Part shown: piece by piece, positions 14,386 to 26,400 of the stretch
Position numbering within the stretch: the first letter of the stretch is position 1
Layout: every line of letters begins with the position of its first letter
DNA from: Lysobacter concretionis Ko07 = DSM 16239
Lineage (GTDB): Bacteria > Pseudomonadota > Gammaproteobacteria > Xanthomonadales > Xanthomonadaceae
Length of the DNA: 64,000 bases
Reading direction: 5' to 3'
Assembly (NCBI RefSeq): GCF_000768345.1
Contig: NZ_AVPS01000005.1
Coordinates: 310,001 to 374,000 of the forward strand
Notes under the pieces: model-generated
The model's database searches: none
The model's input: only the letters and a program-made list of their open reading frames with translations
Told to the model about the DNA's origin: nothing
Translations under genes and position numbers: made by a program

Positions 14386-15453
14386 ATGCAGTCCCGTGCG
14401 ATAGCGACGTTCGCGCTGCTGCTCAGCGGCGCCCTGCTGGCCGCTTGCGGACGAACGGGCGACCCGGTACCGCAGCAACAAACCGTGGCGCAGCCGAAGG
14501 CATCGGCACCGGCACCGACACCCGAACCGGTTACCGACATGACCGACGTAACCCATATGGGCGACGTTGGGCCCGTCCCGCTGTCGCTGGAAGCCAGTCT
14601 GGCGGCACTTGAACGCGGCGACGACGTTGCCGCCCGGACGGGTTTCCAGGCCTTGGCGCAGCAAGGGGATGCGGAGGCACGGTACCAGTTGGGCCAGATG
14701 CTGGCGGACGGTCGGGGCGGCCCCAAATCCGAAGCGGATGCCGTGGCGTGGCTGCGCAAGGCGGCCGACCAGGGCCACGAGAACGCGGACTACCTCTGGG
14801 GTGCGATGGTGCTCTGGCGTGAGCCGCCCGCCACTGCGGAAGAGCGGTCGTTGGGACTGGCCGCGATCCGCCGTGCTGCCGCGCGCAACGACCGCAACGC
14901 CATGGCCGCACTGACTTTGGTGTATGCCAACGACAGCCAGTTCCGCGACCCCGTCGAAGCCGCGTACTGGAATGACGAGCTCGAAAAGTGGGACGTGATC
15001 GCCGACGTGCGTGCGCGCAACGAGGCCGCGATCGCGGCGGGCGAGCAACGAATGGCCGAGATCGATGAGCGGCTGCGGCAGCTGGACGCAGCCGAGCGCG
15101 CCAACAACGCTGCCGCCGTGCAGGCCCGGGGGCCAGAGCCCTCGGAGGCGGACATGCGCGCCGCACTGGAGTACGCCATGTACGCCAGCAACGGAGAAAC
15201 CGAAATCGACAACGGCGTGGCCAGCGGGGTGCTTTCCATCAAGCAGTTCCAGAAGCACGGCTGTGTGCCCGCCGAGGGCGCGGATGGCTACTACTGCGAG
15301 TATCTGATCGAGGCCGCTCTGGAAATGCAGGCGAACGACGGCGGCGGCGTCAATTGGAACGACCTGCTGGACGTGATGCTCGTCCCGGAAAACGCCTCCG
15401 GACGATTTGTCTACGACACCGCACTCCAGCGCTGGGTGCGATTCGATGAATAG
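14386..15453 (+). CDS. Sel1-repeat lipoprotein
   Basis: It encodes 355 aa with a lipoprotein signal (FALLLSGALLAACG, lipobox LAAC). After a Pro/Thr-rich linker, residues ~70-200 contain Sel1-like helical repeats: AARTGFQALAQQGDAEARYQ, LGQMLADGRGGPKSEADAVA with WLRKAADQGHENADY, and a less regular third unit. A coiled-coil stretch (AAIAAGEQRMAEIDERLRQL) precedes a C-terminal domain with two cysteines (HGCVPAEGADGYYCEY). Sel1 repeats mediate protein contacts at the envelope. It is transcribed away from the Mrr-like gene, with 228 bases between them that could hold both promoters. Confidence 0.8.
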   Translation: MQSRAIATFALLLSGALLAACGRTGDPVPQQQTVAQPKASAPAPTPEPVTDMTDVTHMGDVGPVPLSLEASLAALERGDDVAARTGFQALAQQGDAEARYQLGQMLADGRGGPKSEADAVAWLRKAADQGHENADYLWGAMVLWREPPATAEERSLGLAAIRRAAARNDRNAMAALTLVYANDSQFRDPVEAAYWNDELEKWDVIADVRARNEAAIAAGEQRMAEIDERLRQLDAAERANNAAAVQARGPEPSEADMRAALEYAMYASNGETEIDNGVASGVLSIKQFQKHGCVPAEGADGYYCEYLIEAALEMQANDGGGVNWNDLLDVMLVPENASGRFVYDTALQRWVRFDE

Positions 15454-15469
15454 TCCACGCCGGTTGCGG

Positions 15470-15660
15470 GCCGTGGCGCCTGTCCGGAGGCGTCGCTGAC
15501 GTTATCGAAGGCGTCGCAGAGCTCTTCGGAAACGTCGTTGACGTCATCAGAGACGTTTCAGACCTCGTCGAAGACGTCGCTGCGTCATCGGAAGCGTCGC
15601 CGACCTCATGTGAGACGTCCGCGACCGGAACGCAGGCGTCCACCACGCCTACAGCGGTAT
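15470..15660. other. Low-complexity stretch with recurring GACGTC/GCGTCG words
   Basis: Words such as gacgtc, gcgtcg and gacgtt recur every 9-15 bases for about 130 bases. One plus frame reads as an amphipathic Val/Asp repeat (VADVIEGVAELFGNVVDVIR) but has no start codon or ribosome site. It may be a decayed gene end or simple-sequence expansion; no function is claimed. Confidence 0.4.
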
Positions 15661-15687
15661 CCCCGATGCCACCCGACGCCCAAACAG

Positions 15688-15711
15688 ACAGGCCGCCCGA
15701 AGGCGGCCTGT
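15688..15711. terminator. Hairpin terminator between convergent genes
   Basis: A perfect 10-bp stem, ACAGGCCGCC/GGCGGCCTGT, with a CGAA loop lies 24 bases beyond the stop of the minus-strand gene ending at 15735. The downstream T-tract on that strand is weak (TCTGTTT). It probably ends that gene. Confidence 0.6.
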
Positions 15712-15734
15712 CCGGTGATGCGACGTGCTGCGAC

Positions 15735-16199
15735 TCAGGCCGGTTCGGCCACCTTGCGGCGGGTCTTGGCGAAGCGGGTGCCCAACTCCTTGCGCAGGTC
15801 GTCCAGGCCGTGGGCGGCGCCGGACAGCTTGATGTGGGCGTAGCCCTCCAGCGCCACGCTCATCACGTCGCTGCCGAGCGCGGCGACGGTGTCCTCCACC
15901 TGGGTCGTCAGCCGCTGCAGCTGCTCCAGCACCGGCGCCAGCTTGTCCAACGCGGTCAGGTCGGCCTGCGCCTCCGCCAGGTTGAGGCTGGCCGGAACGA
16001 TGTGCGGGTTCTGCTCCAGCACCCGCAACGCCTGCCGCGCGAAGGCCTGCGACCTCGGCCCCAGCAGGGTCAAACCGCGACGGTCGCCGGACTCCATGCC
16101 GATCAATCCGGGCAACGACGACGACGCCTGCTGCACGCCGGCGACCGCACCGGCAATCTGCTCGTCCGTGAAATCAAGGGAAACAATGTTCTGCGCCAC
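15735..16199 (-). CDS. Conserved-looking hypothetical protein, 154 aa
   Basis: A soluble, mainly helical protein starting MAQNIVSLDFTDEQIAG. Its helices carry regular hydrophobic spacing (LTALDKLAPVLEQLQRLTTQVEDTVAALG), which suggests a bundle. The C-terminus is basic (RFAKTRRKVAEPA). No signal peptide, cysteine or nucleotide-binding motif is present. The family is not recognised. It has its own terminator and appears monocistronic. Confidence 0.6.
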   Translation of the reverse strand: MAQNIVSLDFTDEQIAGAVAGVQQASSSLPGLIGMESGDRRGLTLLGPRSQAFARQALRVLEQNPHIVPASLNLAEAQADLTALDKLAPVLEQLQRLTTQVEDTVAALGSDVMSVALEGYAHIKLSGAAHGLDDLRKELGTRFAKTRRKVAEPA

Positions 16200-16553
16200 A
16201 GCACTCTCCTTTGCCTATCCATGTGTAGTGCGCCGGCGGATGCCGGCGCGTCGTGCTCCGCCGCGGTCCGTGGGCGTGATCGCATACGGGCGATCGGAGC
16301 GGGGTCGAGTGTGCCAAAGGGCGCGTGGGTAGTGAAGCGTGTTCGAAGCCCGGACGAGTTGGGATCCATCTCAGTCTGTGAGAAGCGGGTAACCGACCAT
16401 CTCCCCCGCGCCCCCCCGTTTTCCTGGAAGACGTGGACTCTTACCCGCCTCAACAAACCGAAGACCTGGGTCAACGGTGCGTTGCCGGGGTTCGCCCGCT
16501 TCCCAACTGGGACACCCTTGGACACAATGTCCGCATTCTTCCCGGAGCACCAG
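16200..16553. other. 354-base intergenic region before the restriction-modification genes
   Basis: No gene, tRNA fragment or clear hairpin is seen. A C-tract (cccccgcgccccccc) lies near 16406. This region probably contains the promoter for the methyltransferase and the left junction of the acquired segment, but no attachment site or direct repeat could be identified. Confidence 0.4.
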
Positions 16554-17777
16554 ATGGATACTTACGAGCTCATCGACATCGCCTTGCAGCGGTTCAGCCC
16601 CAAAGAAGTGGCCACGGCCCTCGGGGTGGATCCCAAGACCGTCCGCCGCTGGCATGCGCGCGAGAGTGAGCCCAAACCTTATGTCGCCGACGCCATCCGC
16701 CAGCGCCTGCTGCCATTCGGCGAGCCGCCGAGCGGCCCGGCCGCCTTCCGCTTCATCGACCTCTTCGCCGGCATCGGTGGCATGCGGATCGCTTTCGAGA
16801 AGCAAGGGGGTCGCTGCGTGTTCACCAGCGAATGGGACGATTACGCCCGCAAGACCTACGCAGCCAACTTCCATGACGGTGCCGAACACACCTTCGCCGG
16901 CGACATCACCCAAGTGCATGAAGACAACGTACCCGACCATGACGTTTTGCTGGCGGGATTTCCTTGCCAGCCGTTCTCGATCGCCGGCGTCTCAAAGAAG
17001 AATGCATTGGGCCGGCCCCACGGCTTTGCCGACAAGACCCAGGGCACCCTGTTTTTCGATGTGGCTCGGATCATCGCAGCCAAGCAGCCAAAGGCGTTCC
17101 TGCTGGAGAACGTGAAGAATCTGATCAGCCACGACAAGGGACGGACCTTCTCCACGATCATCGACGTACTCCGGAACGAGCTGGGCTACCACGTCTGGCA
17201 CAAGGTCATAAATGGCAAGCACTTCGTGCCCCAGAATCGGGAGCGCATCATCATCGTCGGCTTCCGGGACCCCGTGGACTTCAGCTGGGAAAACCTGGAG
17301 CTTCCGCCCATCGAATCGGGACCAAAGCTCGACTCCATCCTGCACCGCGAGGACGGAACCGACCCCGCGGAGTGGCATTGCATCGAAGGCGCGCGTGGCA
17401 AGGTGACCCCGAAATACACCCTCTCCGAAAAGCTCTGGGTGTACCTGCAGAACTACGCGGCCGAGCATCGCCGGAAAGGCAACGGCTTCGGCTTCGGATT
17501 GGTCTCGGGCAAGGACACCGCCCGCACTCTGTCGGCCCGCTACTACAAGGACGGATCGGAAATCCTGATCGACCAGGGACGCCGCAAAAATCCGCGCCGC
17601 CTGACCCCGCGCGAGTGCGCCCGCCTGATGGGTTTCGAGGACAGCTTCCGCATCCCGGTTTCGGATACCCGGGCGTACAAGCAGTTCGGTAACTCCGTGG
17701 TGGTGCCGGTGATCAGCAGCGTGGCCGAACTCATGGCGCCCCTGCTGGACGTTGAAGCCGAGCGCAAGGCCGCGTGA
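16554..17777 (+). CDS. DNA (cytosine-5) methyltransferase of EcoRII/Dcm type with N-terminal HTH
   Basis: It encodes 407 aa. The ATG at 16554 is preferred (CGGAG six bases upstream) over one nine codons earlier. Residues 1-60 form a helix-turn-helix (IALQRFSPKEVATALGVDP, KTVRRWHARESEP). C5-methyltransferase motifs follow in order: I IDLFAGIGGMRIAFE, IV GFPCQPFSIAG with the catalytic Cys, VI LLENVKNL, VIII QNRERIIIVGF and X GNSVVVPVISSVAELM. The next two genes encode Vsr and an EcoRII-type endonuclease, so the target is probably CCWGG. The HTH could allow the enzyme to control its own operon. Confidence 0.88.
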   Translation: MDTYELIDIALQRFSPKEVATALGVDPKTVRRWHARESEPKPYVADAIRQRLLPFGEPPSGPAAFRFIDLFAGIGGMRIAFEKQGGRCVFTSEWDDYARKTYAANFHDGAEHTFAGDITQVHEDNVPDHDVLLAGFPCQPFSIAGVSKKNALGRPHGFADKTQGTLFFDVARIIAAKQPKAFLLENVKNLISHDKGRTFSTIIDVLRNELGYHVWHKVINGKHFVPQNRERIIIVGFRDPVDFSWENLELPPIESGPKLDSILHREDGTDPAEWHCIEGARGKVTPKYTLSEKLWVYLQNYAAEHRRKGNGFGFGLVSGKDTARTLSARYYKDGSEILIDQGRRKNPRRLTPRECARLMGFEDSFRIPVSDTRAYKQFGNSVVVPVISSVAELMAPLLDVEAERKAA

Positions 17778-17779
17778 CC

Positions 17780-18211
17780 ATGGACATCATCAGCCCGGAG
17801 CAGCGCTCCGCGCTGATGTCGCGGATCAAAGGGAAAGACACGAAGATCGAACTGGAAGTCCGGCGCGGACTGCACGCGCTGGGCTTCCGCTATCGACTGG
17901 GGGGTGCCGGTCTTCCCGGCCGGCCCGACATCGTGCTGCCGAAGTACCGCACGGCAGTTTTCGTACACGGCTGCTTCTGGCATGGGCACAGCTGTGAGTT
18001 ATTCCGGCTTCCCAAAACACGCCCCGAGTTCTGGCGACAAAAGATTGAAACCAATCGTGCGCGTGACAAGAAAGTCGGCCATGACCTGATATCCCAAGGA
18101 TGGAAGGTCGAGACGCTCTGGGAATGTGAGCTCAGGGGCCGCTCGACTACAAAGAAACTGGAGGCCATCATGGCGTTGGCCGATCGTATTCGAACCCGGG
18201 GGAACGAGTGA
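17780..18211 (+). CDS. vsr: Very short patch repair endonuclease
   Basis: It encodes 143 aa. Vsr nicks at T:G mismatches created when the 5-methylcytosine made by the adjacent methyltransferase deaminates. Family motifs are clear: ALMSRIKGKDTKIELEVRR at the N-terminus, RPDIVLPKYRTAVFVHGCFW containing the catalytic Asp and metal-site residues, HGHSC for structural zinc, and GWKVETLWECEL near the end. The ATG at 17780 is preferred. A GTG two codons upstream overlaps the methyltransferase stop, so the genes are coupled either way. Confidence 0.9.
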   Translation: MDIISPEQRSALMSRIKGKDTKIELEVRRGLHALGFRYRLGGAGLPGRPDIVLPKYRTAVFVHGCFWHGHSCELFRLPKTRPEFWRQKIETNRARDKKVGHDLISQGWKVETLWECELRGRSTTKKLEAIMALADRIRTRGNE

Positions 18212-19581
18212 CCGAACAGTCCGAGCTGTATTTTTCTGAATCCAACGTCGCAGAAGTCGCCGCTGATGGATCGCCTCTGTGGTGGAAAATCCAGAGCCTC
18301 GCAAGCCAGAGCACAGAGCTGTTCGTCAAGAAGCTTTCGCGCAACGATACCTCGTGGGCTGACGACTCGGGAAAGCACCAGGCCGGGTTCTATATTCCGC
18401 GCCCGATCCGGGAGGCAGGATTTTTTCCCGAACTCCAGGCCAACAATCCGGCGAAGCTGCACATATTCCATGCGGAATGTACGGTTCTGTGGCCGCAGAC
18501 GGGCGAAATCACACTCTCCAACATGCGGCACTACAGCAACAAGGGTCCGGAAACGCACTTCACGGGGCTTCCAAAGCCGCTCTTCCGAGACCTGACGCCG
18601 GCATCGCTCATTCTCTCCGGTCGGCTCGCGCAGCCCATTTCCGACTGCAGCTACTGGATCATTGTTCTGGACTCAGCTACCGAGGAAGCCGAACTGCTTG
18701 AGACGGCTCTCGACCTTGAAGCAGGGTTCCATTACGGACGCTTTGAGCCCTCACGCTTCGAGGACGCGTCCAGGCTCGCGCGGGACGAGACGCAGGAACT
18801 GATTGAGCGACTGCAGAGCGCGATCAGAAACGGGACGTTGCCCGAACTCTTGGCCGAGTACGCGGATATTCCGAACCCAGCCACGATTGCTGCCGGCGCA
18901 CGGAAAGAATGGCTCCAGACAAACGGCTTTACCGGGCTTGATCCGTGGGCGATCCCCAATCCGGGCGACGCCATCATGGAGATCAGCCGGGATATCGAGT
19001 TCCGGCACTACCGGCGGTACGAGTTGCGTCGGCGCGCTGTCGAGCTTGTCTCGCTGCTGGCGGATTCGTCCGATCTGACAACAGCGGTTGTCAGGCGCTT
19101 CCCGGAAATCGATCGGGTTTTCCTCAGCGCCAGCCAGCAACGCAAGAACCGTGCGGGCCGGTCTTTTGAGCATCACATTGCAGCCAGCCTGAAAGCCGGC
19201 CATATCCGCTTTACAGAGCAGGCTGTTACCGGCGGACGGCGGCCGGACTTCGTCATGCCGGATCTGTCCGCATTACGCAGCAAGAAGCGGACCTATGCGG
19301 AAGCGCTGGTACTGGCAGCAAAAACCACGTTGCGAGAGCGCTGGAAGCAGGTATCCAGCGAAAGGCTCAACTGCGACGTTTTTCTTGCCACTGTGGACGA
19401 TCGCGTTGCCGCATCGTCGATCCGTGAAATGGCGAACGCCGACATAAGGCTCGTGGTTCCAGAGGCGCTCAAGTCTAGTGATGAAGCGCACTACAAAGGC
19501 CAGCCGAACGTGCTCTCATTCCGCGAATTCTTTGACGGTGAGATCCGGAAATCTCGTCCGTTCCTCGTCATAGCACGCTAG
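18208..19581 (+). CDS. EcoRII-type type II restriction endonuclease
   Basis: It encodes 457 aa; the GTG start overlaps the vsr stop (GTGA). The C-terminal half contains the EcoRII catalytic domain: RSFEHHIAASLK, then RRPDFVMPD with D347 and AAKTTLRERWKQV with K372, a PD-(D/E)XK-type centre. The N-terminal ~180 residues would be the effector-DNA-binding domain that makes EcoRII need two sites. Length is slightly above EcoRII itself. With the Dcm-type methyltransferase and Vsr upstream this is a complete CCWGG-type restriction-modification set. Specificity is inferred from family and context. The gene converges on the GHKL gene without a visible terminator between. Confidence 0.85.
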   Translation: MTEQSELYFSESNVAEVAADGSPLWWKIQSLASQSTELFVKKLSRNDTSWADDSGKHQAGFYIPRPIREAGFFPELQANNPAKLHIFHAECTVLWPQTGEITLSNMRHYSNKGPETHFTGLPKPLFRDLTPASLILSGRLAQPISDCSYWIIVLDSATEEAELLETALDLEAGFHYGRFEPSRFEDASRLARDETQELIERLQSAIRNGTLPELLAEYADIPNPATIAAGARKEWLQTNGFTGLDPWAIPNPGDAIMEISRDIEFRHYRRYELRRRAVELVSLLADSSDLTTAVVRRFPEIDRVFLSASQQRKNRAGRSFEHHIAASLKAGHIRFTEQAVTGGRRPDFVMPDLSALRSKKRTYAEALVLAAKTTLRERWKQVSSERLNCDVFLATVDDRVAASSIREMANADIRLVVPEALKSSDEAHYKGQPNVLSFREFFDGEIRKSRPFLVIAR

Positions 19582-19699
19582 CGGCGCAATCCACCGGGTG
19601 AAGATCGTCGCTTGACTTCTCGAAACATAACCAAGGGGATGTGCACTGACGCTTGACTGACGTTATTATCTGGACCCATTTTTATCGACAGTTCATTTA

Positions 19700-21778
19700 T
19701 TAGGCTGGTGCCTTAGCTGGTTTCTTTTCTTCCTCTTCCATCCTTTGGAGGAAGTTTTCCAGCCGACCCTTTGCACTATCGCGAGAATGGTAATAACTCT
19801 CATAGGCTGCGCGAGCACTAAGGATCAGTGTTTCGTACGTCAAAATCTTAGCGCCGAGCGAGGCAAGTGCCCGGAGCTCAGCCTCGTCAAGATGAGTCCG
19901 GTCCGAGCATACAAAGTAGATAGCAATAGCGCCTGGCGCACCTCCCCCATCCATCCATTCCGCATGCTGCTTTACATACTCAGCTACGGCGCGTCGATAG
20001 CGATTGCATTGATCGGCAATTTTTGCGTATGGAACGCGAACCCCTGGCCGTTTAAGCTCAACCACTACGTGGCGCCCTGACTGCATGCGATACGCAATGT
20101 CGAGCCTTGCCCCGTCTTCCGAGTCTGGACACGATGCCTTCAGGTACTCCGATAGACGAACCTCTTTCTGCTGAGTCCCTTGAATGCGGTCCCACGTGGG
20201 ATCGAGCAGCCACAGATGATCAAGAAGATAGTTCTGAACAACACTTTCAAGATCCTGGGAATTTATCTTTGACTCAAAGGCTTGAATTACTTCCAACCGC
20301 TGGTGACTGATCTCGTGAAAATAACTTTCCTCAACAGCGTCCAAAGTGGCGAATATCGCTTGAAATTCCGGTGAAAGAACGTCCTCAACACCTTCCAGCA
20401 ACTCCAGCGCTTTTTTAACTCGCAATTTTTCGAATGCCACCATAGTGCTTCGGTAAAGCATAGCTCGCGCACGTCGGTTTCTGCTATCGTCGTTGTAAAA
20501 TTGAACCTTCTCGATTGAGCGAATCAGTTTGCGAGCAAGCTTTCGGTCAGCCTCACGCTCGAGGCTTTCAATCCATTCGTTGATGATATCGCTACCGGCT
20601 CCATCAGGCGCACCGCCTACTTCAGATCGCCAACGATCCCACTGATCGCGAATTTCCGCCATCACGGTAATGAGATGTGCCCGGATTGCAAGGTAATACG
20701 GATCATGTTGAATTACAGACTCCCGGGCGGAAGTCGCCCGATCAACGTCGTCGGAATCCAAAAAATCAGCGTGAACTTCACCGACAATATAGCTATTGAA
20801 ATAGCGGGTATCTCCAATGTCTGAAAGAAGATCCTCTTGCCAAAGTCTTCCATTGGCAAAAAGAGATATTTGATTGATGCTTTCACCATCGGCACCGAGC
20901 TTACTTGGAACATCAACAGTCCCAATAAAGCCGCGAACTCTTAGCGCAACATTATCCACTTCGAGGAGCGAGTTGATTTTTTTTGCCGCAGGCTTCCCGT
21001 TCAGAGACTCAGGCATCGCAAGCGGACTCTTGAAACTGATAGCATCTTCGAAGGACTTGTCGTCAAAATACCAGAGGAATTGAAGGTTTTTATGTATACC
21101 GGCGTGCGCGCGCGTTATCGAGACGCCATCCACAACGACCTGAAAGCCGTGATCGGGACCAATAATACCGAAGCGACGGGCCAATCTTGGAACCAAGTAA
21201 GCTCCACTCTTATCAATAGAGCGATTAAGCTCCTCAAGTATGATCCGAGTTCCGTGACCATTCTTGAACGGAACGGGGCTAGCTAGGACTGCTGGAAGAT
21301 ACTCTTCGTCATTCCTCGCCTTTTCCTCAAGCTCTGCTACGTCAATCGAAAACCCGATTGGCGGCTTCCCGTCAACTTGAGTGACCACTTGTACTTTCTG
21401 GGCAATGGAGAACATCGCCAGCTTGCCGATGCCTTTCCGACCCATCACGCGGCGTTGATTATTGTCGGACATCGCCGACCCCGTAAACTCGCGTCGACTG
21501 TAACCTACGCTTAGGAATCTATTTTGAAGAGCGTTGCGGTCCATTCCGTGACCATCATCGGTTACGGTTAGTTTTGACGCTGCCGCATCAATATCGACCT
21601 CAACCAATGATGACTCAGCATCCCAGCTATTTGCGACCAACTCCGTAAGCACAGAGGGAGCGGATGCATAGAGTTTCATTCCCAAATGGTGGAGCACGTT
21701 GAGATGGAGCTTGAACCGTAACGGCTCATCAAAACTCTCTACTGGCTTGACAACATTTTCGTCACTGACTGCCTCCAT
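19700..21778 (-). CDS. GHKL ATPase fused to a PD-(D/E)XK nuclease-like domain, methyltransferase-associated
   Basis: It encodes 692 aa, with a ribosome site GGAGAGG. Residues ~25-200 form a GHKL (Hsp90/MutL/MORC-type) ATPase: N-box E46..N50..D53 in ELVANSWDA, G1 DDGHGM at 74-79, G2 GRKGIGKLA at 113-121, and NGHGTRIIL. A transducer-like domain and helical region follow to ~500. The C-terminal part contains LDIAYRMQ...VVVELKRPG, with D560 and E574-x-K576, a PD-(D/E)XK nuclease signature, then a helical tail ending in a charged EEEEKKPAK. The combination resembles MutL architecture but is not MutL. It starts 15 bases after the C5-methyltransferase gene on the same strand. A methylation-guided restriction or defence effector is the natural inference; no named family is certain. 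GC content is visibly lower than that of flanking genes. Confidence 0.75.
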   Translation of the reverse strand: MEAVSDENVVKPVESFDEPLRFKLHLNVLHHLGMKLYASAPSVLTELVANSWDAESSLVEVDIDAAASKLTVTDDGHGMDRNALQNRFLSVGYSRREFTGSAMSDNNQRRVMGRKGIGKLAMFSIAQKVQVVTQVDGKPPIGFSIDVAELEEKARNDEEYLPAVLASPVPFKNGHGTRIILEELNRSIDKSGAYLVPRLARRFGIIGPDHGFQVVVDGVSITRAHAGIHKNLQFLWYFDDKSFEDAISFKSPLAMPESLNGKPAAKKINSLLEVDNVALRVRGFIGTVDVPSKLGADGESINQISLFANGRLWQEDLLSDIGDTRYFNSYIVGEVHADFLDSDDVDRATSARESVIQHDPYYLAIRAHLITVMAEIRDQWDRWRSEVGGAPDGAGSDIINEWIESLEREADRKLARKLIRSIEKVQFYNDDSRNRRARAMLYRSTMVAFEKLRVKKALELLEGVEDVLSPEFQAIFATLDAVEESYFHEISHQRLEVIQAFESKINSQDLESVVQNYLLDHLWLLDPTWDRIQGTQQKEVRLSEYLKASCPDSEDGARLDIAYRMQSGRHVVVELKRPGVRVPYAKIADQCNRYRRAVAEYVKQHAEWMDGGGAPGAIAIYFVCSDRTHLDEAELRALASLGAKILTYETLILSARAAYESYYHSRDSAKGRLENFLQRMEEEEKKPAKAPA

Positions 21779-21793
21779 GCCACCTCTCCGGAT

Positions 21794-22831
21794 CTACTGT
21801 GATATGTGCTTAATGAAGTGGTCGCCGACCGCCCAACCGAGCGGTGGCGGTACTGCATTCCCGATGTGTTTGCCAATGGAAAGAAACTCGACCCGCTTGG
21901 CGCTCTCGCCAAATTTATAAGTTAACGGGAAACCCTGTAATAATGCAGCCTCCCTGAGCGTGAGAGCCCGATCCTGTTCCGGATGACCAAATCGCCCCGT
22001 CCCAAAGTTATAAGCTTGTGTTGTTATAGTCGGCGCTGGCTCATCCCATGTCATACGACCGTAAACGCTCTGAAACGTAGACCCAGTTTCTCGTTTGTGG
22101 CATTCCGCCAGCAGCTCCTCCGGCCAGTCGTGCCACGTGCCACCTGGTTTTGACGCCTGTATTCGTCGAACGTTGATATCGGTGAGCATCCTGGCCTTAT
22201 GCAACGGATCTGTCGGGGACTGCTGTCCCGCACCGATTGGCGGCAAATTGCCAATGACGTCGCGAACCGTTGGGAAGCGATCCCATTGTTGATTTTGTAG
22301 TGGCTCCAATTCACCCAACGCAGAGGCGACTAGCACTAAGCGTCGGCGATGCTGAGCTAGGCCGAAGTGCGGGCCGTAACAGGATCTATATCGCACGCTA
22401 TAGCCCAGAATTGCAAGTGTGCTTGTAAATCGACGAAACACGCCGGTACGGCTCAATCCCGGAACGTTTTCCATCGTCACGAGGTGCGGACGCACCTCAG
22501 TAACCAAGCGAGAGAACTCGTCAAGAAGGCTCCACTTAGCATCGGCGGAGGTATCAGCACCACGCATGTGGCGTGAAAACGGCTGGCAGGGAGCGCACCC
22601 AGCTAAAAGGCGCAGCCCGGTTTTTGGGTAGCGCTTTAAGAGCTCAGCCCCGGTGACCTCTCGAATATCACCTGTGACAAATGGAGCGCCAATGTTTACC
22701 TCAAAGGTCGAGCGACAGGAATTGTCAATATCGTAGCCGGCGACAATATCTATGCCTGAGCCCTTCAACCCGAAGGAAAGCCCTCCAACGCCACAAAATA
22801 AATCGATCGCGTGAATTTTCCTAGCTTTCAT
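21794..22831 (-). CDS. DNA (cytosine-5) methyltransferase paired with the GHKL-nuclease
   Basis: It encodes 345 aa with all core motifs: I IDLFCGVGGLSFGL, IV GCAPCQPFSRHMRG with catalytic Cys, VI TMENVPGL, VIII GLAQHRRRLVLVAS, a target-recognition region around residues 190-270, and X IGNAVPPPLGWAVG. It is only distantly similar to the EcoRII-type enzyme at 16554, so it should have a different target sequence. The downstream GHKL-nuclease gene follows after 15 bases, implying one transcript. Its ATG overlaps the stop (TGA) of a short upstream frame carrying a mutase-derived fragment. Codon use and base composition are AT-richer than in the chromosome around. Confidence 0.88.
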   Translation of the reverse strand: MKARKIHAIDLFCGVGGLSFGLKGSGIDIVAGYDIDNSCRSTFEVNIGAPFVTGDIREVTGAELLKRYPKTGLRLLAGCAPCQPFSRHMRGADTSADAKWSLLDEFSRLVTEVRPHLVTMENVPGLSRTGVFRRFTSTLAILGYSVRYRSCYGPHFGLAQHRRRLVLVASALGELEPLQNQQWDRFPTVRDVIGNLPPIGAGQQSPTDPLHKARMLTDINVRRIQASKPGGTWHDWPEELLAECHKRETGSTFQSVYGRMTWDEPAPTITTQAYNFGTGRFGHPEQDRALTLREAALLQGFPLTYKFGESAKRVEFLSIGKHIGNAVPPPLGWAVGDHFIKHISQ

Positions 22832-22892
22832 AATTCAACACCCCAATCACATTCCTCTTCGAAAATAACTACGCCCCCGCCGAAGCCATTCT

Positions 22893-22957
22893 CCTGCCAG
22901 GGGTTCTCGTTGAATTTCAGCCCCAGCTCCTTGTTGATGATCATCTGAATCGGGACG
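22893..22957 (-). repeat. 65-bp duplicated fragment of icmF at the island edge
   Basis: Bases 22893-22957 match 24006-24070 inside icmF with 3 mismatches. On the minus strand both read [11 protein letters not shown](K/N)FNENPWQ. Here the frame continues as a 38-codon open frame (22828-22944) ending FEEECDWGVEL, whose TGA overlaps the methyltransferase ATG. A recombination scar or captured filler DNA is likely; whether the short frame is translated is unknown. Confidence 0.75.
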
Positions 22958-23153
22958 TTGGCGGGGTATTGGGCGCGCCATCGCGCAGCGCCAAACGCTC
23001 GGGCGACAAGGCACCGCTTTGGTAGGCCAGCTCAACCATCTCCTCGAAGAAGTCGATCTTCGCGCCAGCGCTCAAACTAATCCATGCCAGCAACTGGGCG
23101 CGCTCGGCATCCTCGAAGGAGAAGCTCGGTACTCGCTCAAGATTTGCGGTCAT
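22941..23153 (-). CDS. Small acidic protein downstream of icmF, function unknown
   Basis: It encodes 70 aa beginning MTANLERVPSFSFEDAERAQ. The core is helical (LLAWISLSAGAKIDFFEEMV, ELAYQSGALSPERLALRDG), and the last ten residues (NTPPTSRFR) run into the icmF-derived repeat, so the true C-terminus was probably replaced. The pattern resembles short partner proteins encoded next to nucleotidyltransferase-like toxins, but no toxin gene is present and this link is tentative. A GGGTGA sequence precedes the ATG. Another tiny frame (23137-23226, MGRPRDLEDIDKLQQIRDAE...) overlaps its start. Confidence 0.45.
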   Translation of the reverse strand: MTANLERVPSFSFEDAERAQLLAWISLSAGAKIDFFEEMVELAYQSGALSPERLALRDGAPNTPPTSRFR

Positions 23154-23231
23154 TGCTATCACCCTGCTCGGCATCGCGGATCTGCTGGAGCTTATCAATG
23201 TCTTCCAGATCACGCGGCCGGCCCATGCCAA

Positions 23232-23468
23232 TCACAGCCGGAACGAGGCTTCATTCGATGACCGCGGCCGCGCCGGCCAGCGAGGGCTCAGCGCTTCCAC
23301 CACTTCCATCAGTTCAGCCCACGCTTCGAACGGATCACCGTCACCGGACGGCGTATACGGCAGGCCACCATCGCGCACGAGCAATGCATCCGGCTTGCGC
23401 CCAGTTGGTCGGGAAGCCGTTTTCTGTGATGAGCCCTGCTTCTCGATCTGGTCGACCAGCCGCGCCAT
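23232..23468 (-). CDS. Small hypothetical protein directly after icmF
   Basis: It encodes 78 aa starting MARLVDQIEKQGSSQ, four bases after the icmF stop. It contains a Pro/Gly turn region (LLVRDGGLPYTPSGDGDPFE) and a helix (AWAELMEVVEALSPRW). No family is recognised. Tight spacing to icmF suggests co-transcription. The ribosome site is weak. Together with the two short frames further downstream it forms a cluster of minor genes between icmF and the acquired methyltransferase operon. Confidence 0.45.
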   Translation of the reverse strand: MARLVDQIEKQGSSQKTASRPTGRKPDALLVRDGGLPYTPSGDGDPFEAWAELMEVVEALSPRWPARPRSSNEASFRL

Positions 23469-23472
23469 CGAC

Positions 23473-26400
23473 TTACATGTTCCGGCGGTACTCACCGCCG
23501 ACGTCGTAGAGGGCGTGACTGATCTGCCCCAGGCTATGCGTCTTCACCGCCTCAATCAGCGCCTCGAACACATTGCGGCGATCCCGCGCGGTCTTCTGCA
23601 GGTAGGCCAGTCCGTGTCCGTCATGCGCATCTTCGGCTGAGCCATCGCTCCCCACTTCGTGACTGTGCGAGGTTTCGCCGCGCGGCGCCAGCCGGTTGCG
23701 GTTTTCCTGCCAGTTGCGGACGTTCTCGATCTGCTGCCCCTTTTCTTCCGGGGTCGAGCGGATCAGTTCGATCTCGGTGGTCACTTCGCCGGCGTGTTCC
23801 TTTGGCAGGAAGGTGTTGACGCCGACCAGCGGCAGGCTGCCGTCGTGCTTCTTGTGCTCGTAGTACAGGCTTTCTTCCTGGATCTTGCCGCGCTGGTACA
23901 TGGTGTCCATGGCACCGAGCACGCCGCCGCGCTCGCTGATGGCTTCGAACTCCTTGTAGACGGCTTCCTCGACGATGTCGGTGAGCTTGTCGACGATGAA
24001 GCTGCCCTGCCAGGGGTTCTCGTTGAAGTTCAGCCCCAGCTCCTTGTTGATGATCATCTGGATCGCGACGGCGCGGCGCACGGACTCTTCGGTCGGGGTG
24101 GTGATGGCCTCGTCGTAGGCGTTGGTGTGCAGGGAGTTGCAGTTGTCGAACAGCGCATACACCGCCTGCAGGGTGGTGCGGATGTCGTTGAACTGGATCT
24201 CCTGCGCGTGCAGGGAGCGGCCGCTGGTCTGGATGTGGTACTTCATCATCTGGCTGCGGCTGGACGCGCCGTAGCGCTCACGCATGGCGCGGGCCCAGAT
24301 GCGGCGGGCGACGCGGCCGATGACGGTGTATTCCGGGTCCATGCCGTTGCTGAAGAAGAACGACAGGTTGGGCGCGAAGTCGTCGATGTCCATGCCGCGC
24401 GCGAGGTAGTACTCGACGATGGTGAAACCGTTGCTCAGGGTGAAGGCGAGCTGGCTGATCGGGTTCGCCCCGGCCTCGGCGATGTGGTAGCCGGAGATCG
24501 ACACCGAGTAGAAGTTGCGCACGCCGTGGTCGACGAAGTACTGCTGGATGTCGCCCATCATCCGCAGCGCGAACTCGGTGCTGAAGATGCAGGTGTTCTG
24601 GGCCTGGTCCTCCTTGAGGATGTCGGCCTGCACGGTGCCGCGCACGGTCTTGAGGGTGTAGGCCTTGATACGCGCGTAGGTCTCCGCATCGACCACCTGG
24701 TCGCCGGTGACGCCGAGCAGGCCGAGGCCGAGGCCGTCATTGGTTTCCGGCAGTTCGCCGCTGTACGCGGGGCGCTGCTTGCCGTCGAACAGGGCGTCGA
24801 TCTTCGCCTTCGCCGCGTTCCAGCGCGCGTCGTCCTCGCGCAGGTATTTCTCGATCTGCTGGTCGATGGCGCAGTTCATGAACATCGCCAGGATCATCGG
24901 CGCGGGGCCGTTGATGGTCATCGACACGCTGGTGGTCGGCGCGCACAGGTCGAAGCCGGAGTACAGCTTCTTCATGTCGTCCAGCGAGGCGATGTTGACA
25001 CCGGAGTTGCCGATCTTGCCGAAGATGTCCGGGCGCGGCGCGGGATCCTCGCCGTACAGGGTGACCGAGTCGAACGCGGTCGACAGGCGCGCGGCGGGCT
25101 GGCCGACCGACAGGTAATGGAAGCGGCGGTTGGTGCGCTCCGGCGTACCCTCGCCGGCGAACATGCGGATCGGGTCCTCGCCGGTGCGGCGGTACGGGTA
25201 GACGCCACCGGTGTAGGGGTAATGGCCGGGCAGGTTTTCCTTCTGCAGGAAGGTCAGCAGCTCGCCCCAGGACCTGTAGGTCGGCGCCGCGATCTTGGGC
25301 ACCAGCTGGTGGCTGAGCGACTCGCGGTAGTTCTCGACCCGGATCTTCTTGCCGCGGACTTCGTACTCGGTGATCTCGTCGGTGATCGACTTCAGCCGCT
25401 CGGGCCAGTGGCGCAGCAGCTTGCGCGAGTCGGCCGACAGCGAATGGATCGCGTCGTTGTAGCGCTGGCGCAGGGTGAGCAGGGTGCGGTCGACCGTTGC
25501 GTCACGTGCGCCCGATCCGTCACGCGCGCCCGACTCGTCACGCGCGCCCACCTCGTCGCGCGCGCCCATCTCGTCACGTGCGCCCATCTCGTCACGTGCG
25601 CCCATCTCGTCATCCCCGCGAAGGCGGGGATCCATGGACGTTGGATCCTCATCGGCCGAACGTCCATGGGTTCCCGCCTTCGCGGGAACGACGGTGGAGG
25701 CGTGATCGACGGTGGACGGGTGGGAGGGTTCGTCGTGGCGGGTTGAAACCCGCCCTACGAGGTCTTCGGCCTGGTAAAGATCCAGCTGCTTCGGCAGCTT
25801 CGTGTCGCCCAGATCATGCAGCGACTGCCAATAGCTCTGCGCGCGGTCGGCGATCTCGGACTGGGTGTCGATCTGTGCGTTGATCGCCCTGCCCTGTTCG
25901 GCGATCTCGGCCAGGTAGCGCACCCGGGCGCCGGGGATCAGCACGGTGGCGCGCGGTTCCTTGACGGTGGTGTCGAGCTCGGGGCGGAAGTCGCAATGGG
26001 CGGGCGCGGCGTGCGGGGCATTCCCCTTCGACGCGGACTTCCCCGTCGTCGTCCCACGGGGACTTCCGTCGGTCGTAGGAGCGACGTGAGTCGCGACCTG
26101 TGCATCGCTCCCCGGGTTCTGCGCGTTCGCGACCGACGTCGCTCCTACATCGGAGCCCGAACCGGCGGCGCCAGAGCCGCCCGCGGCACCGGCATCATCG
26201 CCGCGATCCATGCCCAGCTTCTCGCGCATCAGGCGGCACAGGTTGGCGAACATCCAGCTGATACCGGGGTCGTTGAACTGGCTGGCGATGGTCGGGTAGA
26301 CGGGGACGTCCTCGTCCCTGGTCTGGAAGGCGACGCGGTTGCGCTTCCACTGCTTGCGGATGTCGCGCAACGCATCTTCCGCGCCGCGCTTGTCGTACTT

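Follow-up and report, generated by a model that had tools for sequence, protein, structure and literature searches.

A BbrUII/HgiDII-family restriction enzyme with an Hsp90-like ATPase half and an adjoining C5 methyltransferase in Lysobacter concretionis

The gene pair and its family

Here we describe a two-gene, putative restriction-modification system in Lysobacter concretionis Ko07 = DSM 16239, encoded within a 64,000-nucleotide stretch of contig NZ_AVPS01000005.1 (assembly GCF_000768345.1, positions 310,001 to 374,000). This whole stretch is referred to below as the window, and coordinates refer to it unless another locus is named. The system consists of a gene for a DNA C5-cytosine methyltransferase and, downstream of it, a gene for a 692-residue protein in which a GHKL ATPase is followed by a nuclease domain.

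19700..21778, minus strand: BbrUII/HgiDII-family restriction enzyme, 692 amino acids (NF050001, 698.6 bits against a cut-off of 550; PADLOC REase_II, 271 bits)
21794..22831, minus strand: putative cognate DNA C5-cytosine methyltransferase, 345 amino acids (Pfam DNA_methylase, E 1.1e-51; TIGR00675 dcm, 119.5 bits against a cut-off of 100.65)

According to the list of open reading frames (ORFs), the two genes are separated by a spacer of 15 bases (21779-21793). The G+C content is 0.50 for the ATPase gene and 0.54 for that of the methyltransferase, while the flanks stand at 0.67, a difference that would fit horizontal acquisition. Repeats within 15200-24000 comprise a single short direct pair together with seven imperfect inverted ones. 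As the genes are not framed by any of these, element ends marked by repeats were rejected. The initial annotation of this DNA, made from the letters and their ORFs, had proposed the 692-residue ORF, a full C5 methyltransferase gene, a 15-base gap between them and an AT-richer setting, all of which are borne out by the coordinates, domain matches and base composition given here.

Judged by sequence, the system belongs to an already named and partly characterised family. The score of the larger protein lies well above the curated cut-off of the NCBIfam equivalog model NF050001 (BbrUII/HgiDII family restriction enzyme), the alignment is full length (residues 21-679 to model positions 2-658), and PADLOC names it a Type II restriction enzyme. 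In Pfam, the ATPase domain alone rises above cut-off (HATPase_c_3, residues 41-155, E 8.8e-19). All 53 sequences of our alignment, the L. concretionis protein included, match NF050001 at E 1e-20 or better; only the L. concretionis score was set against the cut-off, the other aligned sequences being judged by E-value. Two of the 398 genomes drawn from the phylum pass this cut-off, one of them being the L. concretionis genome itself, and the weaker matches in the same draw, among the matches listed, fall mostly on the ATPase part. With the BbrUII/HgiDII systems the pair thus shares a full-length match and an adjoining C5 methyltransferase, and among the features tested nothing sets it apart from them, its own target site being putative. 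A new kind of system was rejected, since the match to NF050001 already names it; such a match to a characterised system was among the outcomes that the initial annotation had listed as refuting its proposal.

Domain architecture and active sites

The 692-residue protein can be divided into three parts.

20600..21721, minus strand: Hsp90-like half, GHKL ATPase plus middle/S5-type domain with conserved R352, approximately residues 20-393 (Pfam HATPase_c_3, Foldseek, invariance)
20330..20599, minus strand: predicted helical connector, approximately residues 394-483 (AlphaFold2 model, with lower confidence in the connector)
19700..20329, minus strand: predicted C-terminal PD-(D/E)XK nuclease, residues 484-692, with E511, D560, E574 and K576 (AlphaFold2, Foldseek, profile match)

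By predicted fold, the ATPase half resembles the N-terminal and middle domains of Hsp90. The AlphaFold2 model of the full protein, built on the 53-row alignment, reached a mean predicted local distance difference test score (pLDDT) of 82.7 and a predicted template-modelling (TM) score of 0.65, and when it was compared with solved structures in Foldseek, Hsp90-type chaperones occupied all of the best 50 rows. The first match, GRP94 (5uls; E 1.9e-15, 481 columns), superposed loosely (TM 0.35 by query length, root-mean-square deviation 12.1), as would be expected if the domains differed in their relative orientation. A sequence profile of the family likewise placed HtpG first (E 2.9e-12), with MutL lower (E 7.6e-9).

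The C-terminal domain is predicted to have a PD-(D/E)XK nuclease fold, nearest to SduA and NucS. Modelled alone, its 209 residues gave a mean pLDDT of 88.5, and the best solved matches were E. coli SduA on DNA (8ps5, E 2.8e-5), the Bacillus cereus Shedu nuclease (8ti9, E 4.5e-4) and NucS (2vld, E 1.5e-3); SduA also came first in the sequence profile of the region (8ti8, E 0.0025). In the model, D560 lies on one strand, E574 on the next with K576 just beyond, and E511 opens an earlier helix. Because these matches are loose (TM 0.53 or less), the assignment is one of fold class and not of close homology. Viral predicted structures gave weak matches only, the best being an uncharacterised Salmonella phage protein (E 8.9e-5, TM 0.34).

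The combination of a GHKL ATPase with a nuclease had initially been likened to the plan of MutL, and this comparison stands for the ATP site, where TIGR00585 aligns to residues 42-86, though at 30.8 bits against a cut-off of 180. It does not extend further: the fold is that of the Hsp90 N-terminal and middle domains, the nuclease is of another, Shedu/NucS-like fold, and neither MutL_C nor DNA_mis_repair matches the 692-residue protein in Pfam at E up to 1, whereas the MutL C-terminal domains are detected in the MutL protein of locus L031. A MutL-type endonuclease was rejected on these grounds.

Both active sites are intact. The ATP site comprises E46, N50 and D53, DDGHGM at 74-79 and GRKGIGKLA at 113-121, and the nuclease signature reads E511, D560 and E574-x-K576 (E-D-ExK). 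Invariant in all 53 alignment rows, the L. concretionis protein being one of them, are E46, N50, D53, D74, G76, G78, G113, K115, G116, G118, K119 and R352 of the ATPase half and E511, D560 and E574 of the nuclease, while K576 is lysine in 47 rows and methionine in the other 6. In a 17-row alignment, E574 and K576 are each conserved in 16 rows and the rest of these residues in all 17; eleven of its rows came from whole-protein or profile searches, five from a scan with six peptide patterns, one of which is a GHKL motif, and one is the L. concretionis protein. In the 53-row set, part of the GHKL conservation follows from how the rows were chosen, since two GHKL-motif patterns were used to scan the viral contigs; the nuclease residues were not a selection criterion, and their conservation does not stem from that choice. 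The motif positions given by the initial annotation are thus exact and, given the Pfam match and the invariance, not a matter of chance, and the nuclease fold that it expected around residues 555-600 is predicted by the model; its signature (D560, E574 and K576) was sound as far as it went and missed E511, the first glutamate of E-D-ExK.

Relatives and methyltransferase linkage

Relatives were drawn from genome contigs, viral contigs (the best 80 of 128 relatives), plasmids, phages and sampled genomes. We kept ORFs that spanned 85% or more of the family profile and scored no fewer than 80 bits, giving 92 ORFs in 59 clusters at 80% identity. The linkage count was made on the 55 clusters (88 members) scoring at least 400 bits, each cluster being judged by its representative; a methyltransferase was counted when it scored at least 80 profile bits and lay within 600 bases, and partial, contig-truncated and low-scoring loci were left out.

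By this measure a C5 methyltransferase adjoins the representatives of 52 of the 55 clusters (85 of the 88 members), which answers in the affirmative the question, raised at the outset, of whether homologues keep such company. It lies upstream on the same strand in 32 clusters and downstream and convergent in 18, with single cases upstream on the opposite strand and downstream on the same strand. Among the clusters below 400 bits, L029 has a methyltransferase and L006, L007 and L020 have none within approximately 1.4 kilobases (kb) or less per side, so that linkage over all 59 clusters stands at 53.

In the plasmid set, 14 records reached at least 80% coverage and ten were examined (H2, H3, H7 and H12 being left out); a C5 methyltransferase accompanies 9 of these 10 full-length relatives. 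In phage PhiR44_1, a homologue with 37.5% identity, annotated as ParaMORC3, adjoins a Dcm gene, and copies of the phage version (at least 99% identity) occur in 30 of 5426 complete E. coli genomes. All ten of the chromosomal copies listed from these 30 stand beside a cytosine methyltransferase; NCBI names four of them BbrUII/HgiDII family restriction enzyme and six ATP-binding protein. The nearest named relative is from Lysobacter spongiae (75% identity, L023); among the viral sequences, L086 corresponds to it, with an identical match and percentage. This, together with the 80 relatives kept from viral contigs, suggests that provirus carriage is common. At locus L061 (4004-9965), a BbrUII-type ATPase-nuclease occurs with DrmC, an annotated Vsr and a C5 methyltransferase.

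Target site

C5 methyltransferases carry a recognition domain between a QRR-type motif and a TITT motif. When the 345-residue enzyme was aligned with 19 linked methyltransferases of relatives, this region showed 38-66% identity, compared with 40-70% for the remainder of the protein; relative by relative, its identity was either above that of the rest or at most 5 points off. Such conserved recognition regions would be expected if the target site were shared with relatives. Two of the 19 methyltransferases (L064 and L146) are lower in identity throughout and may differ. Of the namesake enzymes, M.HgiDII is described as a 5-methylcytosine methyltransferase recognising GTCGAC (PMC5867850), and M.BbrUII as recognising the same sequence, with a Chania homologue overlapping its adjoining restriction gene by 3 bp (PMC5005818). 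By analogy, GTCGAC is probably also the site of the L. concretionis pair.

The best PADLOC match of the 345-residue methyltransferase is DISARM DrmMII (288 bits), and at locus L187 (566-3373), on a Rhodococcus plasmid, a 52.6% identical methyltransferase stands beside a HEPN-like nuclease and a DUF262 protein; from this setting and the DrmMII match, the same type of methyltransferase may serve several systems. A separate observation concerns the palindrome CTCGAG, which is strongly under-represented, at 0.42 of expectation in the host sample and 0.36 in one same-family genome, and this scarcity looks like a lineage trait because it is found in both.

Discussion

We consider it very probable that these two genes encode a BbrUII/HgiDII-family restriction-modification system of Type II-like character, which would cut unmethylated DNA, most likely at GTCGAC. 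Both the NF050001 match and the methyltransferase linkage support the pairing of a restriction enzyme with its own C5 methyltransferase, and in this respect, as in the presence of a real nuclease fold, the interpretation offered by the initial annotation has held; its likening of the protein to MutL has held for the ATP site. In the mechanism that we propose, the methyltransferase would mark a short host site, probably GTCGAC, and thereby protect host DNA; the 692-residue protein would dimerise, probably via its Hsp90-like ATPase; a clamp-like middle region would hold DNA; and the C-terminal PD-(D/E)XK domain would cut incoming DNA lacking the mark. That ATP gates the nuclease is what we infer from VcSduA, the best analogue in the published descriptions (PMC12137116); dimerisation of the protein and activity of the pair in this host are likewise presumed.

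Two kinds of previously described proteins are close in design. ParaMORC3 proteins combine a GHKL and an S5-type domain with a C-terminal restriction-endonuclease fold bearing E-D-ExK, in restriction-modification contexts (Iyer et al. 2008, PMC2292703). By description, the L. concretionis protein is alike in its GHKL and S5-type domains with intact ATP motifs and in its E-D-ExK nuclease fold; it differs in being methyltransferase-linked, whereas a subset of the nuclease-bearing paraMORC3 members is described as stand-alone (PMC2292703). VcSduA, again likened by description, also has a GHKL ATPase followed by a PD-(D/E)XK nuclease, and its phage defence is reported to be lost when the ATPase is changed (E27A) and likewise when the nuclease is (K557A); it has been modelled as a dimer, and its authors tie its architecture to paraMORC3 (PMC12137116). 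Unlike the L. concretionis protein, it carries the signature domain DUF4263 (SduA_C) and is described as working alone, without a methyltransferase (PMC12137116).

A broader reading, which we put forward tentatively and regard as possible rather than probable, is that the BbrUII/HgiDII enzymes are ATP-gated Shedu-type nucleases with an acquired Type II-style methyl mark. An Hsp90-like clamp would close on DNA and license cutting after checking whether a site, for example GTCGAC, is methylated, and the ATPase-nuclease module would be exchanged among C5-methyltransferase pairs, DISARM-type and Druantia-type islands. If so, the family would connect Shedu and the larger defence islands with Type II restriction, and an ATP-dependent machine would be what reads a textbook Type II specificity. 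In itself, the pair is a further carrier of a family that already has a name. Its wider interest lies in why the Hsp90/MutL-type ATP site of a Type II-like enzyme should stay intact in every aligned sequence, subject to the selection on GHKL motifs mentioned above, and in how the same ATPase-nuclease comes to stand in DISARM-type and Druantia-type islands; a two-gene system suits a direct test of ATP-gated restriction.

Several observations weigh against the main, restriction-modification reading. The searched literature, outside which most subscription journals lie, contains no biochemistry on ATP use by BbrUII or HgiDII. SduA_C is not matched in the 692-residue protein in Pfam at E up to 1, and it is matched in just 6 of the 53 aligned sequences at E 0.01. 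The host shows no avoidance particular to GTCGAC: in 464 kb the observed/expected ratio of this site is 0.81 (z -3.8), rank 26 of 56 palindromes, most of which are low in this sample, and in 400 kb of one same-family genome with no above-cut-off copy the ratio is 0.87, rank 33 of 54. Confirmation of the site through genome avoidance was accordingly rejected, there being no signal beyond this one control; a recent arrival need not show any avoidance. Finally, the fetched flanks of 3 of the 88 family members (L026, L059 and L115) lack a C5 methyltransferase. These members are scattered across the tree, which was read by eye and carries no support values, and L026 shares its cluster with L025, which has a methyltransferase. 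At L026 (35-6980) the ATPase-nuclease stands beside DISARM DrmA, DrmB and DrmC and a Vsr, at L059 (1-6010) beside Druantia DruE- and DruK-like genes, and at L115 (117-6959) beside a PifA-like protein and a methylase matching DrmMI (1017 bits) and Type IIG enzymes (974 bits).

These three members would fit an alternative in which the ATPase-nuclease is a stand-alone Shedu-like defence protein which, like VcSduA, senses phage DNA or its ends, with the methyltransferase as a loosely linked neighbour or immunity factor. The nearness of the nuclease domain to SduA by fold and profile points the same way, as do two relatives combining GHKL with SduA_C: L006 has no C5 methyltransferase in the surrounding 14 kb (L188), and L007 has none in 9 kb (L189), on a contig that starts approximately 230 bases before the ORF. 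L006 and L007, however, reach no more than 160.6 and 165.1 bits, far short of the NF050001 cut-off, the equivalog model is named after known restriction enzymes, and the linkage in all but three of the 55 clusters follows two recurrent arrangements, so that we regard this alternative as improbable. Shedu proper was rejected, SduA_C not being detected in the 692-residue protein. The restriction-modification reading must also be weighed against joint action with a second set of genes in the window, whose members were identified with Pfam and NCBIfam.

15666-19581: convergent set of a Dcm-type methyltransferase, Vsr and an EcoRII-C-type restriction enzyme (EcoRII-C, E 3e-25)
17774-18211: Vsr endonuclease gene

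The pair might form part of a larger defence island with this EcoRII/Dcm/Vsr set, in which Vsr would repair deamination arising from both methyltransferases. The two sets are indeed convergent and only 118 bases apart, and a Vsr occurs in the fetched flank of 19 of the 59 family clusters, the L. concretionis locus included, so that Vsr is not confined to Dcm/EcoRII-type sets. Yet at the L. concretionis locus the Vsr gene overlaps the Dcm-type and EcoRII-type genes and not the pair, none of the other clusters has an EcoRII-type relative (E 1e-5) in its fetched flank, and the two sets are unlike in base composition. We therefore regard joint action as very unlikely, in keeping with the separateness of the two sets noted from the start. 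Within the neighbouring set, the ORF of the Dcm-type methyltransferase is 703 amino acids long and looks over-extended, its true start probably being a downstream ATG, because the best match to it in PADLOC does not start until residue 298.

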